This document shows positions 2,868-39,957 of a stretch of 40,989 bases of DNA, piece by piece. The position numbers were made by a program, and so were the translations under genes. Where the stretch lies: positions 1-40,989 of IMG/VR virus record IMGVR_UViG_3300013131_004115; one strand, written 5' to 3'. Source of the stretch: a virus. Below the pieces are notes generated by a model. That model was given only the letters and a program-made list of their open reading frames with translations, did no database searches and was not told the origin of the DNA. Numbering within the stretch: position 1 is the stretch's first letter; the number at the start of each line of letters is the position of its first letter.

Positions 2868-3444
2868 TAAATTTATCCTTATCTATTACAAGGAACGGTC
2901 TATACTTTTTAATTAGTCTTGATATATCGGGCCAAACAATAGTGTCACTAATTTCTGTATCGAATTTGTTAACCAACCCATATAATTTGTCCAGTATTAC
3001 TAGTGTTTCTATTGTTATGCTTTTTCTCAAATATGCCTTAATTATATATGGATGTTCGCCTTTTGCACAATTGAAAAGATCACCAAACTGCTTTTTGCTC
3101 TCTTCCAATTCCTCTAAAAGTTTATCTAAATCTTGCGTGAAATTATATGACAAACTTTCTACTCTTTTCTTCCAAAGAATATAGGTCTCTTTTGCTTCTG
3201 TATCAAATACTCCGCCCCACCGATCTCCAGAAACGAAATTAGCAATAAGAAAATTAGCTACTTCTTCGTCTGTATAAGTTTTTGCTACTTTATTTATTGC
3301 ATACAAATCTTTTCTTTTAGCAAAAGCTTGTCTGGTTGCTCTAACTTTCCCCTTCTGTTCAATAACATCATATTTGTCTGTTGTAAAATGTAACTTTAAT
3401 GCCAAGTAATACTTATAAACTTCAAATGCATCCATTACGATCAT
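2812..3444 (-). CDS. 59: gp59-like loader of the replicative helicase
   Basis: The 210-residue product (T4 gp59 is 217) matches gp59, which binds fork DNA and gp32 and loads the gp41 helicase. Visible landmarks are AFEVYKYYLALKLHFTTDKYDVI near the N-terminus (T4: SVYKLYLMIKQHMNGKYDVI), a KRKDLYAINKVAKTY segment, ANFLIANFVSGDRWGG, and the all-helical C-domain with ETLVILDKLYGLVNKFD. It overlaps gp33 by ATGA at the start. A second ATG three codons in is an alternative start. Order gp33-gp59-gp32 is exactly that of T4. Confidence 0.9.
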   Translation of the reverse strand: MIVMDAFEVYKYYLALKLHFTTDKYDVIEQKGKVRATRQAFAKRKDLYAINKVAKTYTDEEVANFLIANFVSGDRWGGVFDTEAKETYILWKKRVESLSYNFTQDLDKLLEELEESKKQFGDLFNCAKGEHPYIIKAYLRKSITIETLVILDKLYGLVNKFDTEISDTIVWPDISRLIKKYRPFLVIDKDKFNEIIRRRFGYDGAETNQH

Positions 3445-3704
3445 ATAGGTAATTTACCCCTTCGTTTTAGTAAATTTGCTTCTTCCGCCTCAATCTGAAT
3501 TTTATCCTTTAAAGATTGATTCACCAATGAGGCAACTGAAGAAACATCAATGTCAATATTATTACAATAATCTATGATAGCATCCATATAACCGATTTTT
3601 TCTTTGGCTACTTTTTCTTCTATGTGCAGAGAAAATTCATTTGCCGATCTAAATCTTTTAGTTATTATAATGCCATCGGTTAACTTATTAAATTCTTCAA
3701 TCAT
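3441..3704 (-). CDS. 33: gp33-like late-transcription co-activator
   Basis: The 87-residue product, just upstream of gp59 as in T4, matches the short gp33 of marine T4-like phages. Seen: FSLHIEEKVAKEKIGYMDAI, then a helical IDIDVSSVASLVNQSLKDKIQIEAEEANLL. In T4, gp33 bridges the beta-flap of host RNA polymerase and the gp45 sliding clamp and enables late transcription with gp55. It is coupled at both ends by ATGA overlaps. Late promoter motifs (TATAAATA) elsewhere in the window fit a working gp33/gp55 system. The call leans heavily on position and length. Confidence 0.8.
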   Translation of the reverse strand: MIEEFNKLTDGIIITKRFRSANEFSLHIEEKVAKEKIGYMDAIIDYCNNIDIDVSSVASLVNQSLKDKIQIEAEEANLLKRRGKLPI

Positions 3705-8454: not shown

Positions 8455-8604
8455 CCAAAACCCCGTCAGGTTTAAGCGACTAGCTTAAGATCCTGATAGA
8501 AATAGTCGTTGTTTGCGTCTATTTAGTTTGCTAGGATTACGTCCTTCGCCTTACGAGTTGTCCACTTACTTACTATTTGCCCCGTCGAAACCAGAATCAG
8601 GCCC
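8455..8604 (-). ncRNA. ssrA: Permuted tmRNA, coding (5' tRNA half + tag) piece; 3' end approximate
   Basis: The piece starts GGGCCTGATTCTGGTTTCGA, the conserved tmRNA 5' end (E. coli GGGGCTGATTCTGGATTCGA). GGGCCTG (8604-8598) pairs with CAGGTCC of the acceptor piece, keeping the G3-U pair read by alanyl-tRNA synthetase. AAATAGACGCAAACAACGAC aligns with the E. coli resume site. From GCA at 8516 the tag frame reads ANNDYFYQDLKLVA then TAA (8474-8472). The stop lies inside helix H5: TCAGG/CCTGA plus TTAAGC/GCTTAA (8496-8466), as in known tmRNAs. A GGA/TCC hairpin near 8545-8533 is a likely part of PK1. tmRNA with SmpB rescues stalled ribosomes and tags the nascent chain for proteolysis. No smpB is in this window. 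Confidence 0.88.
8472..8516 (-). other. tmRNA proteolysis-tag reading frame
   Basis: Fourteen sense codons from GCA to GCT followed by TAA encode ANNDYFYQDLKLVA. An Ala resume codon and a hydrophobic -LVA end are what ClpXP-type proteases recognise (the usual end is -LAA or -VAA). The reading frame has no ATG, as expected for a tag. Confidence 0.85.
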
Positions 8605-8748
8605 CTCAGAAAATAACTTTAAGATTCTTTCAGTTTGTTGCTCAATTTCGCAAGACTGTTTTATAATCAACTCTCGTTGTTTATCAATATCAACCTTGTT
8701 TAATTGTTCATCTATAAATTTTTTAACTGACTCCATAACTGACTCCAT
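8566..8748 (-). CDS. 60-residue ORF in the tmRNA intervening segment
   Basis: The ORF starts 6 nt after GAGGAG with a MESVMESV repeat. It encodes a charged helical peptide (VKKFIDEQLNKVDIDKQREL, then CEIEQQTERILKLF) and ends SEGPDSGFDGANSK, where its last 13 codons lie in the 5' end of the tmRNA coding piece. It fills the 167-nt segment (8605-8771) between the acceptor and coding pieces. Helical content, Shine-Dalgarno and length suggest it can be translated from the precursor. It may also be a chance ORF in a spacer. I recognise no family. Confidence 0.5.
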   Translation of the reverse strand: MESVMESVKKFIDEQLNKVDIDKQRELIIKQSCEIEQQTERILKLFSEGPDSGFDGANSK

Positions 8749-8757
8749 AACTGACTC
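8731..8757. repeat. 12-nt direct repeat (AACTGACTCCAT)
   Basis: AACTGACTCCAT occurs twice in tandem and is followed by a partial third copy (AACTGACTCC). On the minus strand it produces the MESVMESV repeat at the start of the small ORF and duplicates its ATG. Slippage probably created it. Confidence 0.7.
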
Positions 8758-8771
8758 CTCGAATTATTTTT

Positions 8772-8846
8772 TGGTGGACCTGGGCGGAATCGAACCGCCG
8801 TCCGCAGCACGTTTCTGCTTGCTTCATACAACTATATGAATATATA
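8772..8846 (-). ncRNA. ssrA: Permuted tmRNA, acceptor (3' tRNA half) piece; 5' end approximate
   Basis: The minus strand reads GGAC, then T-stem/loop GGCGG-TTCGATT-CCGCC (8799-8783), acceptor strand CAGGTCC (8782-8776), discriminator A and an encoded CCA (8774-8772). This is the tmRNA 3' end (E. coli GGAC-GCGGG-TTCAACT-CCCGC-CAGCTCC-ACCA). No matching acceptor 5' strand lies upstream; it lies downstream at 8604-8598, so the gene is circularly permuted. AGTTGT (8833-8828) pairs with ACAACT (8561-8556) of the coding piece, a probable part of helix H2. The 5' end lies near the stop codon of ahpD at 8847, with only 75 nt available. Confidence 0.88.
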
Positions 8847-9359
8847 TTAGTTATTCAAGACTCTAGATACTGCAGTAATTACAGCAGCGATACGGCCAAT
8901 GTCTCGTAACTGTTCTGTAGTATAGCCTTCTTTTTTCAAAGTCTCGTAATGAGCTTTGACGCAAAAATGACACTTACCCACAATACTAGCGGCTAGACTG
9001 TATGCTTCAAACCTCGCCTTAGTAGTACCGCCATGACTAGCAATAGCATTCATTCTTAACTGCGCTGGAAGACCTTTTAAGTTATCATCTTCCGCCATTT
9101 CGACATAGGGGTACCAAGTATTTGTCATTGACATTATACTTCCTGCCGTAAGTGCAGCATCTGCTTCATTACGTTCTAAAATCACACTATGTAACCAAGT
9201 CCAAAATTTAACGTTACCGGTGGCAAATGCTGCTGCAACAGCAATGGCTTCAGCCTCATTGGCTGGAATGCTGCTACGCTTAATTACTGCATCCAGATTA
9301 AGTCTTGTATCCTTGGCATAATCTGGAATAGTTTCTTTTAAATTATCAACCCAACTCAT
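8847..9359 (-). CDS. ahpD: AhpD-like alkylhydroperoxidase (CMD fold)
   Basis: The 170-residue all-helical product (M. tuberculosis AhpD is about 177) carries the AhpD active site E-x11-C-x2-C-x3-H: FEAYSLAASIVGKCHFCVKAH near residues 115-136. AhpD reduces oxidised AhpC and has weak peroxidase activity of its own; its CxxC accepts electrons from lipoylated protein. GSIMSMTNTWYPYVEMA is the usual preceding helix pair. The gene overlaps the homing-endonuclease stop (ATGA) with AAGGATGA as ribosome site. AhpC is encoded just upstream (10156-10731), so the two are probably a working pair split by the endonuclease gene. Confidence 0.88.
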   Translation of the reverse strand: MSWVDNLKETIPDYAKDTRLNLDAVIKRSSIPANEAEAIAVAAAFATGNVKFWTWLHSVILERNEADAALTAGSIMSMTNTWYPYVEMAEDDNLKGLPAQLRMNAIASHGGTTKARFEAYSLAASIVGKCHFCVKAHYETLKKEGYTTEQLRDIGRIAAVITAVSRVLNN

Positions 9360-10111
9360 TCATCATCCTTATTTTTACATCTATCAAAATGATATCTAAC
9401 TAAATTGTGTTTTGCCCCGGATATATTGCAATGAGGGCAAATTACTTTTTCTAAAATTCTTCCTTGTTTCCAACCCAAATTCAAATAACTATTTAAATCC
9501 TCTTTATTAACCTTTTTATGATACACGCCATCATTGATCCATTTAGTATTGGCAACTAATATAGAAAGTTTTTGCTTAGTAATATCACTATGTAATCTAC
9601 CTATTGCCTTACTTCGTATTTTATTTCTACGAATTTCTTCTTGTTCTTTGGGTCTACTTAATTGGCCCAAAGACATTAATAATTTAGTTTCTTCAGATTT
9701 TTTTCTATTTTTCAAAGTTAATGATCTTTTAATGTTACTCTCTTTAGTTTGTTTTTTATTTTTTTGCGATAAAAGAGCTTTTTCGCTCGCTGGTCCATAA
9801 TTGCTAAACTTTTTACCACCCATATTCTTATTAAGCCAATCTGATTTTTTTAAAGCATTAACTTTTTTCAAAAATCTATATTCATAATCTAAAGCTTCTT
9901 GCGGTGTTTTAAATTTTTTTCTTACAGAGGCAAAAAAAGAATCAGTCCCATATTCTTGGATTAATTTATGAATTTTAACTGAAGAAGTAAAGTATCCATC
10001 TTTTTTCCAAAATAAACTTGGATTACTATTTTTAGCATATTTGGAACCATAATACTTCAATCCAGTTGGTTTGTGATAAACATAATAAGTATACGGTGTT
10101 TGGGCAGACAT
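9356..10111 (-). CDS. GIY-YIG homing endonuclease
   Basis: The 251-residue product has an N-terminal GIY-YIG-type domain (YTYYVYHKPTGLKYYGSKY, then WKKDGYFTSSVKIHKLIQEYG), a long basic helical linker (residues 110-180), a WINDGVYHKKV...LNLGWKQGR block typical of phage-encoded homing enzymes, and a C-terminal Zn-finger-like CPHCNISGAKHNLVRYHFDRC. It cuts intergenic sites to copy itself between phages. It lies free-standing between ahpC and ahpD. Its start codon lies in one arm of a 13-bp inverted repeat with a late-type promoter in the loop (10100-10151). Confidence 0.88.
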   Translation of the reverse strand: MSAQTPYTYYVYHKPTGLKYYGSKYAKNSNPSLFWKKDGYFTSSVKIHKLIQEYGTDSFFASVRKKFKTPQEALDYEYRFLKKVNALKKSDWLNKNMGGKKFSNYGPASEKALLSQKNKKQTKESNIKRSLTLKNRKKSEETKLLMSLGQLSRPKEQEEIRRNKIRSKAIGRLHSDITKQKLSILVANTKWINDGVYHKKVNKEDLNSYLNLGWKQGRILEKVICPHCNISGAKHNLVRYHFDRCKNKDDE

Positions 10112-10151
10112 ATATTTTTCCTGTTTAAATTATTTATTTATGTCTGCCCAA
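10100..10151. promoter_or_regulatory. Start-codon-sequestering hairpin with late-type promoter in the loop
   Basis: TTGGGCAGACATA (10100-10112) and TATGTCTGCCCAA (10139-10151) are perfect 13-bp inverted repeats with a 26-nt loop. In a transcript from upstream, the endonuclease ATG (10111-10109) and first codons are paired. The loop holds its AGGAAA ribosome site. CATAAATA (10142-10135), one base off the T4 late consensus, lies at the upstream arm/loop junction; an overlapping AATAAATA (10138-10131) follows. A late start near 10129 would drop the upstream arm and free the start codon. Confidence 0.75.
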
Positions 10152-10155
10152 CGGG

Positions 10156-10731
10156 TTATAGTGTTTCCTCACCTATCTCCCTAGAACAGGCGCACAATTC
10201 TCCAGTTTGACATGCATCAAGAATACGAAGTGTCTCCTCTGGGCTTCTACCAACATTTAAGTTATTAACCGTTATGTGTTGTATAACATTATTTGGATCA
10301 ACAATGAAGGTAGCTCTTAAAGGTACACCATTTACTTTATCCAAAATACCTAACGTAGCAGCCAAACCATTCTCGACATAGCGATCGTTATTATAATCTT
10401 GCGATTGTTTAATTAAATCTGCAAACATCCATGAATTAGTTTTCTTTAAATCTTCGTGATGATTTTTCCAGGCTAATAAACAATATTCATTATCTGTACA
10501 ACCCATTAATAAGATTGTATCGCGATCTTTAAAATCACCATTTAATTTATCATATCCTACGATTTCTGTAGGGCATACGAACGTAAATGATTTTGGATAG
10601 AACATAATCACTTTCCACTTACCAGGGAAAGATTGTTCCGTTAGGTCCTCAAAGGCACCTTCGGGTGTAAGAGCACCGGGCTTTACACCAACGATATTAA
10701 ACGGTTCTAGATTATCACCAACAGTCAGCAT
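10156..10731 (-). CDS. ahpC: AhpC-type 2-Cys peroxiredoxin
   Basis: The 191-residue product reduces H2O2 and organic peroxides. It has the peroxidatic motif YPKSFTFVCPTE (PxxxTxxC) and the C-terminal LDACQTGELCACS, the layout of AhpCs with two C-terminal Cys such as M. tuberculosis AhpC (C174/C176), which uses AhpD as reductant. LRATFIVDPNNVIQHI is the usual thioredoxin-fold strand. I chose the ATG at 10731 (AAGGAA 8 nt upstream, and homology begins at LTVGDNLEPF); an upstream in-frame Met at 10788 would add 19 basic residues not seen in the family. A TATAAT (10796-10791) may be a host-type -10 box. Confidence 0.92.
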   Translation of the reverse strand: MLTVGDNLEPFNIVGVKPGALTPEGAFEDLTEQSFPGKWKVIMFYPKSFTFVCPTEIVGYDKLNGDFKDRDTILLMGCTDNEYCLLAWKNHHEDLKKTNSWMFADLIKQSQDYNNDRYVENGLAATLGILDKVNGVPLRATFIVDPNNVIQHITVNNLNVGRSPEETLRILDACQTGELCACSREIGEETL

Positions 10732-10814
10732 TTGTTTTTTCCTTTTTAGCTTAAATGTTTTTAGGGGAGGGTATCTTCGCATAGACATATTATATAAGAA
10801 TAAGACTATAAAGT

Positions 10815-31930: not shown

Positions 31931-31938
31931 TATTTATT
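31931..31938 (-). promoter_or_regulatory. Late-promoter-like AATAAATA touching a start codon
   Basis: One base from the T4 late consensus; predicted start at about 31925, inside the ATG at 31926-31924. Confidence 0.5.
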
Positions 31939-35339: not shown

Positions 35340-35786
35340 TTATTTATTTGGAACGGTGGGCCACGTAATATCAAATGGATTTTGTTGTGCTGTTATGTCT
35401 CTTAATGCTTGTCTATAGATAGCCCATTCAGATTTCTTTTCAGCAGATAAATCAACATCTACCAATGCTGTCCAGTCGGAATCTTTAAGCAAATTGTTTC
35501 TAGTAGATCTGATATTTGCCCATTGAGATTCGTTTTTACTGTTGATTTCTTCTTCGGTTAATTGTTGAACTGTTACCAGAAATACTTGATTGTTTTCGAA
35601 ATATGGTTCACACGATACCAATTTCTCTGTATTTCTATCATGCTGTTTAAAGACTGTTACAGAATACAAATTGTTTTCTTCCAACCATTCTTGACTGGGA
35701 CCATAGTTTGGGAAAGATACGTTGTTATATTTTTCCTTTAAATTAAAAACCTCTGTAACAATGTTGTTGTCTACTTTTGCGTACAT
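35340..35786 (-). CDS. Phage tail assembly chaperone-like protein
   Basis: The 148-residue product has a variable N-terminal part (MYAKVDNNIVTEVFNLKEKY) and a C-terminal Phage_tail_APC-type domain: WANIRSTRNNLLKDSDWTAL, WAIYRQALRDITAQQNPFDI and TWPTVP. Such proteins help fibre or tail-tip assembly. I chose the ATG at 35786 (AGGAG 7 nt upstream) over the TTG codon before it. It lies between the collagen-like fibre and the LamG-like adhesin. Confidence 0.85.
   Translation of the reverse strand: MYAKVDNNIVTEVFNLKEKYNNVSFPNYGPSQEWLEENNLYSVTVFKQHDRNTEKLVSCEPYFENNQVFLVTVQQLTEEEINSKNESQWANIRSTRNNLLKDSDWTALVDVDLSAEKKSEWAIYRQALRDITAQQNPFDITWPTVPNK
35341..35348 (-). promoter_or_regulatory. Late-promoter-like AATAAATA touching a start codon
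   Basis: One base off consensus; the predicted late start is 35335, the A of the ATG. The motif lies within the last codons of the preceding gene. Confidence 0.5.
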
Positions 35787-39949: not shown

Positions 39950-39957
39950 TATTTATA
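39950..39957 (-). promoter_or_regulatory. T4-type late promoter TATAAATA at the head of the fibre operon
   Basis: Perfect match, between the phoH terminator and the first fibre gene; the predicted start is 39944. Confidence 0.82.

Follow-up and report, generated by a model that had tools for sequence, protein, structure and literature searches.

A hairpin that covers the start codon of a free-standing GIY-YIG homing endonuclease gene (HEG) in a T4-like phage, and that has a late-promoter motif built into one of its arms, probably serves as a late-expression switch. On the strength of the sequence and of modelled RNA folds, we put the probability of this reading at about 0.85. The arrangement of hairpin and promoter is real and very probably functional, and from it we infer both late initiation and translational repression. 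The window, by which we mean the whole stretch of DNA analysed, is the complete IMG/VR record IMGVR_UViG_3300013131_004115 (40,989 bases). It is a fragment of a T4-like phage, with genes for tail fibres, gp33, a gp59-like helicase loader and an ssDNA-binding protein of the gp32 kind.

The endonuclease gene and its neighbours

The HEG open reading frame (ORF) matches the phrog_314 homing endonucleases (2.5e-24). Pfam alone gives no above-threshold call for this ORF. In the family alignment, however, NUMOD3 is recognized in 20 of 20 members and SegE_GIY-YIG in 19 of 20, the window's own scores lying below the Pfam cut-offs. The Y, YYG, R, E and N columns are conserved. A sequence-based search of the PDB with the HEG found no relevant match, whereas a fold search with its AlphaFold model (mean pLDDT 84) returned the I-TevI catalytic domain as the best PDB match, with a probability of 1.00. 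Sequence and modelled fold thus identify a free-standing GIY-YIG homing endonuclease with predicted nuclease activity. These matches, together with the AhpC-TSA and CMD matches of the flanking genes (Table 1), bear out the preliminary description, which had placed a GIY-YIG gene between ahpC and ahpD. The AAGGA within the last HEG codons appears to be ahpD's own Shine-Dalgarno (SD) sequence, and ahpD could therefore still be translated when the HEG is silent.

Table 1. Positions of the HEG, its leader and associated genes in the window
Feature	Positions	Strand	Basis or remark
gp33, late-promoter coactivator of T4-like phages	3441..3704	-	phrog_254, 2e-19
ahpD/CMD-family gene	8847..9359	-	CMD 1.2e-12; downstream of HEG; its ATG overlaps the HEG stop (ATGA)
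GIY-YIG (Seg-type) HEG ORF	9356..10111	-	251 aa; C-terminal CxxC/HxxxC zinc-finger-like motif
SD for ahpD, AAGGA	9366..9370	-	sequence; within the last HEG codons
Hairpin 3' arm, TATGTCTGCCCAA	10100..10112	-	contains ATG and codons 2-4
HEG start codon, ATG	10109..10111	-	in stem; predicted P unpaired <=0.02 on read-through RNA
HEG SD, AGGA	10119..10122	-	in loop, 7 nt before ATG
Predicted late transcript start	10125..10129	-	10129 from the first motif, 10125 from the second; inferred from T4 spacing
Second late-promoter motif, AATAAATA	10131..10138	-	overlaps the first, four bases on; entirely in loop
Late-promoter motif, CATAAATA	10135..10142	-	CATA in arm, AATA in loop; its CAT is an anti-start that pairs with ATG
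Hairpin 5' arm, TTGGGCAGACATA	10139..10151	-	non-coding, directly past the ahpC stop
ahpC-like peroxiredoxin gene	10156..10788	-	AhpC-TSA 2.2e-18; upstream neighbour of HEG

Several other features of this region deserve mention. The ahpC gene may start 19 codons downstream of the called position (10732-10788, minus strand), as the sequence MLTVGDN after AGGAAAAAACAA resembles a true start; if ahpC does begin there, a conserved leader remains upstream of it. A permuted, phage-encoded tmRNA is located directly downstream of ahpD (8472-8833, minus strand; RF04321, 110 bits; ARAGORN tag ANNDYFYQDLKLVA). It is also present in relatives with or without the HEG (L012, L013, L014, L018, L021, L176, L184 and L189). 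A betaproteobacterial tmRNA model also matches L178 and L021, which hints at a betaproteobacterial host. In addition, host-like genes for a carbamoyltransferase, NifU, a sulfotransferase and a kinase/cytidyltransferase-like protein are found between 5299 and 14696 on the minus strand.

A start-codon hairpin that contains a late-promoter motif

On the minus strand the hairpin reads TTGGGCAGACATA-AATAAATAATTTAAACAGGAAAAATA-TATGTCTGCCCAA, with perfect 13-bp arms and a 26-nt loop. The preliminary description had claimed a perfect 13-bp repeat that pairs the ATG and first codons with upstream sequence, and it is exact on this point. It had also been right to place a promoter motif at the junction of arm and loop and AGGAAA within the loop. 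This is the sole perfect inverted repeat of at least 13 bp with a loop of 3-60 nt in the window, while dinucleotide shuffles (n=60) yield a mean of 0.067 such repeats and none with at least 6 G+C in an arm. The 101-nt fold has a z score of -2.78, calculated on the plus strand of the same palindrome, with the minus strand folded separately.

The motif NATAAATA has been reported as the late promoter of T4-like cyanophages and TATAAATA as that of T4 (PMC2984593). There are 13 copies of NATAAATA on the coding strand of the window versus 4 on the other strand, and 11 of the 13 are located 5-43 nt ahead of gene starts. Likewise, TATAAATA occurs 5 times on the coding strand versus 0 times on the other. 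Three copies of NATAAATA on the minus strand (31931-31938, 35341-35348 and 39950-39957) lie just 5-6 nt ahead of predicted start codons, and the late RNAs would be nearly leaderless if these starts are right. At the HEG, both late-promoter motifs fall between the outer ends of the arms and, judging from sequence and T4 geometry, the late transcript would lack the 5' arm.

These features suggest how the switch might operate. In RNA reading through from ahpC or from farther upstream, the ATG and codons 2-4 would be locked in the 13-bp stem, and thus the nuclease would hardly be translated. Late transcription dependent on gp55 and gp33 would instead start at CATAAATA/AATAAATA and place the RNA 5' end inside the loop. 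The late RNA, without the 5' arm and with a short leader of ~14-18 nt bearing AGGA, would leave the ATG available. Promoter and lock thus have bases in common, the CAT of CATAAATA being the very triplet that pairs with the ATG. The scheme presupposes early read-through from ahpC, and sigma-70-like sites are not commoner than chance expectation. A search for gp55 found no match in nine incomplete contigs, and the built-in control of the same search gave no match either.

Predicted folding energies are consistent with this mechanism. The opening energy, defined as the predicted cost of clearing positions -15 to +13 around the start, is 15.3-17.7 kcal/mol for the window's read-through RNA versus 3.7-6.0 for its late RNA. 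The same calculation gives 16.2-17.6 versus 3.3-5.8 kcal/mol for I-TevI, I-TevII, segB, e and 49 of T4, and 2.3-9.3 kcal/mol for ten other T4 starts. Reviews describe the hairpin/late-promoter mechanism for I-TevI, I-TevII, I-TevIII, segB and Aeh1 mobE as well as for genes e, soc and 49 (PMC2988022, PMC3014915). The earlier proposal that a late RNA exposes the start by the T4 scheme is therefore supported, both by energies that match the T4 precedents and by reviews that confirm the mechanism for I-TevI and segB. The opening-energy difference is 7.1 kcal/mol for HEGs versus 2.6 for other genes (p = 3e-4), a contrast that is inflated by kinship within the HEG clade.

If only positions -15 to +3 are cleared, the window's cost is 7.8 versus 2.1-4.4 kcal/mol, because its SD is unpaired in the loop. 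In the predicted fold of this allele it is the AUG and the first codons that would be blocked, and with the SD outside the stem the gene may be repressed less tightly than I-TevI or segB.

Conservation and insertion of the leader

Searching IMG/VR with an alignment of HEG proteins, and thus without regard to the hairpin, yielded 41 loci. A scan for conserved blocks that included distant HEGs failed for want of such blocks, and a closer alignment was used instead. The clade that contains the window has support of 99/96, and all its members are located directly after an ahpC stop. There are nine further distinct intact relatives (53-66% identical). With the window this makes ten intact alleles, and every one has CATAAATA, an SD and a start-covering hairpin; L187, which is counted among them, ends at a contig edge and is open as far as sequenced. 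The predicted opening energies of the nine other intact alleles are 12-25 kcal/mol for read-through RNA versus 2.6-5.5 for late RNA. When leaders were shuffled with promoter and SD fixed, no more than 5% of shuffles reached the observed pairing in 9 of the 10 intact alleles, the test being weak for L176 (0.145).

The stem itself varies among these alleles. It is formed by CGGTCAGACAT/ATGTCTGACCG in L176, by GGACAGACATA/TATGTCTGTCC in L186 and by GGTTAGACATA/TATGTCTGACC, with one G-T pair, in L185. In L181 and L184 the outer pairs are lost, inner pairs are gained and the SD is also taken in. Position 5 of the stem is G-C, T-A or A-T in perfect alleles, and position 8 is T-A or C-G. Pair 5 is mismatched in several alleles, and there the stem extends inwards via CATAAAT/ATTTATG. 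Swapping arms among alleles lowers pairing modestly (p about 0.04, with kinship limiting the covariation statistics), and this support is modest because the core hardly varies. Also conserved between the ahpC stop and the hairpin, just upstream of the latter in L174 and L176-L189, is a GTCCGTAGG-like block that is largely outside the stem and that is a possible endonuclease operator.

The preliminary description had held that loss of the repeat from relatives that keep the gene would tell against a switch. This check did not refute the switch. Among the relatives at the ahpC site, promoter and start-covering hairpin have been lost only from a frameshifted copy, L189 (4001-4736, after ahpC), where the promoter is degraded to CATAATTA, the stem is weakened and the switch is gone (7.7 vs 7.0 kcal/mol). 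This single case may be a decaying homing endonuclease, or the frameshift could be a metagenome sequencing error.

A scan with a DNA-only pattern (AGACATAAATA...TATGTCT) gave 80 hits. Those with an SD and an ORF of at least 100 codons mostly belong to the HEG family at the ahpC site, and the remainder include a different GIY-YIG-like family, represented by L164 (12857-13600, minus strand). This family has the same CATAAATA/ATG hairpin, with opening energies of 13.4 versus 2.9 kcal/mol, which suggests that its hairpin/promoter layout is of independent origin. In distant HEG relatives at other sites, NATAAATA is often present upstream and the switch is mostly absent. A clear switch is seen in L198 only, while that of L200 is weaker, long-range and over the SD. 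In L090 (Sinorhizobium phage phiN3), a CCCATGTATGGA...TCCATACATGGG hairpin about 50 nt upstream of 1495, just ahead of the SD and TTG start of a HEG relative, resembles the seg43(25) type.

One possibility is that the pairing arose by chance from a motif, NATAAATA, that is merely AT-rich, together with the shared MSDR/MSAQ protein start and common ancestry. Several relatives are indeed mutually close, and the core AGACATA/TATGTCT is nearly invariant. However, members that differ in up to half of their residues still pair, this pairing exceeds that of shuffles that retain promoter and SD, and the layout recurs in the unrelated L164 family. We therefore consider a chance structure very unlikely.

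The anatomy of the insertion provides a further view of the leader. In the HEG-less relatives L013, L012 and L014, whose ahpC DNA is 81-83% identical, ahpC and ahpD overlap as CTATGAG, CTATGAA and TTATGAG, respectively. The window carries a 799-bp insert at this overlap, made up of a TAA, the leader and the HEG ORF, whose stop re-creates an ATGA overlap with ahpD. Since the leader is confined to HEG-bearing alleles and is missing from HEG-less ahpC-ahpD junctions, it is part of the insertion. Its similarity to the empty ahpC-ahpD region is not above that of shuffles, and we rejected the idea that it resembles an empty-site homing sequence.

This lack of a match also bears on whether the repeat acts as DNA, perhaps as the endonuclease's own operator or as part of an insertion or homing site. 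I-TevI represses itself by binding an operator that covers its own late promoter (PMC2988022), and conservation of the unpaired GTCCGTAGG just outside the stem would fit such a role. Yet the stem sequences vary while RNA pairing is maintained, and autorepression would supplement the RNA switch rather than replace it. A DNA element is thus an unlikely explanation of the repeat, although it may coexist with the switch.

Perhaps the main role of the hairpin is instead to protect or set the 3' end of ahpC mRNA, as a processing site or weak terminator, and its overlap with the HEG start is incidental. The hairpin does begin directly after the ahpC stop, and processing and termination are further means by which T4 HEG transcripts can be controlled (PMC2988022). 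An intrinsic terminator was rejected, given the 26-nt loop, the absence of a T-run past the stem and the lack of any terminator call at the hairpin. Moreover, the hairpin is missing behind ahpC in HEG-less alleles, and the stem shifts among relatives yet always covers the ATG. A 3'-end function is accordingly very unlikely to be the main role of a hairpin that we regard as a late-expression switch.

Relation to known late-expression switches

The mechanism is already known from T4 I-TevI and segB, and the window HEG is very probably a further case. The nearest in form is T4 segB (GAACATAAATACTCTTA...TAGGAGATATTTATGTTC), which shares the CATAAATA...TTTATG stem. Both are free-standing GIY-YIG HEGs in which the CAT of CATAAATA pairs with the ATG, the SD and start are located downstream and the read-through RNA folds. 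However, segB resides among tRNA genes and its SD is hidden too, whereas the window HEG lies between ahpC and ahpD with its SD in the loop. For I-TevI (td intron) and I-TevII of T4, the late promoter similarly leaves a late RNA without one arm and the predicted energies are nearly equal to those of the window; I-TevI also shares its catalytic-domain fold with the HEG model. Unlike the window HEG, which has no intron, these two genes are intron-encoded and have a hidden ribosome-binding site (RBS) rather than a hidden ATG alone. The mobE gene of Aeromonas phage Aeh1 is another free-standing HEG with a hairpin over its RBS and a late promoter (PMC2988022), but it belongs to the HNH family and is located in nrdA. 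T4 genes e and 49 have start-covering hairpins that are relieved by late promoters, but they are not mobile elements.

What is added here is the conservation of the switch in a clade of free-standing HEGs, its loss in a decayed copy and the use of the late promoter's own CAT as the anti-start. We tentatively propose that T4-like phages of the environment harbour a mobile HEG cassette whose insertion point lies behind ahpC, and that the leader (late promoter, anti-start arm and SD) belongs to this cassette as a built-in, self-contained unit. In this proposal, for which the odds are somewhat short of even, the CAT/CATAAAT of the promoter is antisense to the start codon, and unrelated HEGs (the ahpC-site clade, L164 and T4 segB) would have reached this promoter-is-the-lock design independently.

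The findings carry a regulatory trick familiar from T4 over to uncultured T4-like phages from the environment and to a free-standing nuclease family. They also provide evolutionary evidence for the switch, which is retained over divergence of half of the protein sequence and lost in a dead copy. Furthermore, they suggest a search rule for late-locked mobile genes in metagenomes, namely CATAAATA followed by TTTATG or ATATG within ~25 nt.
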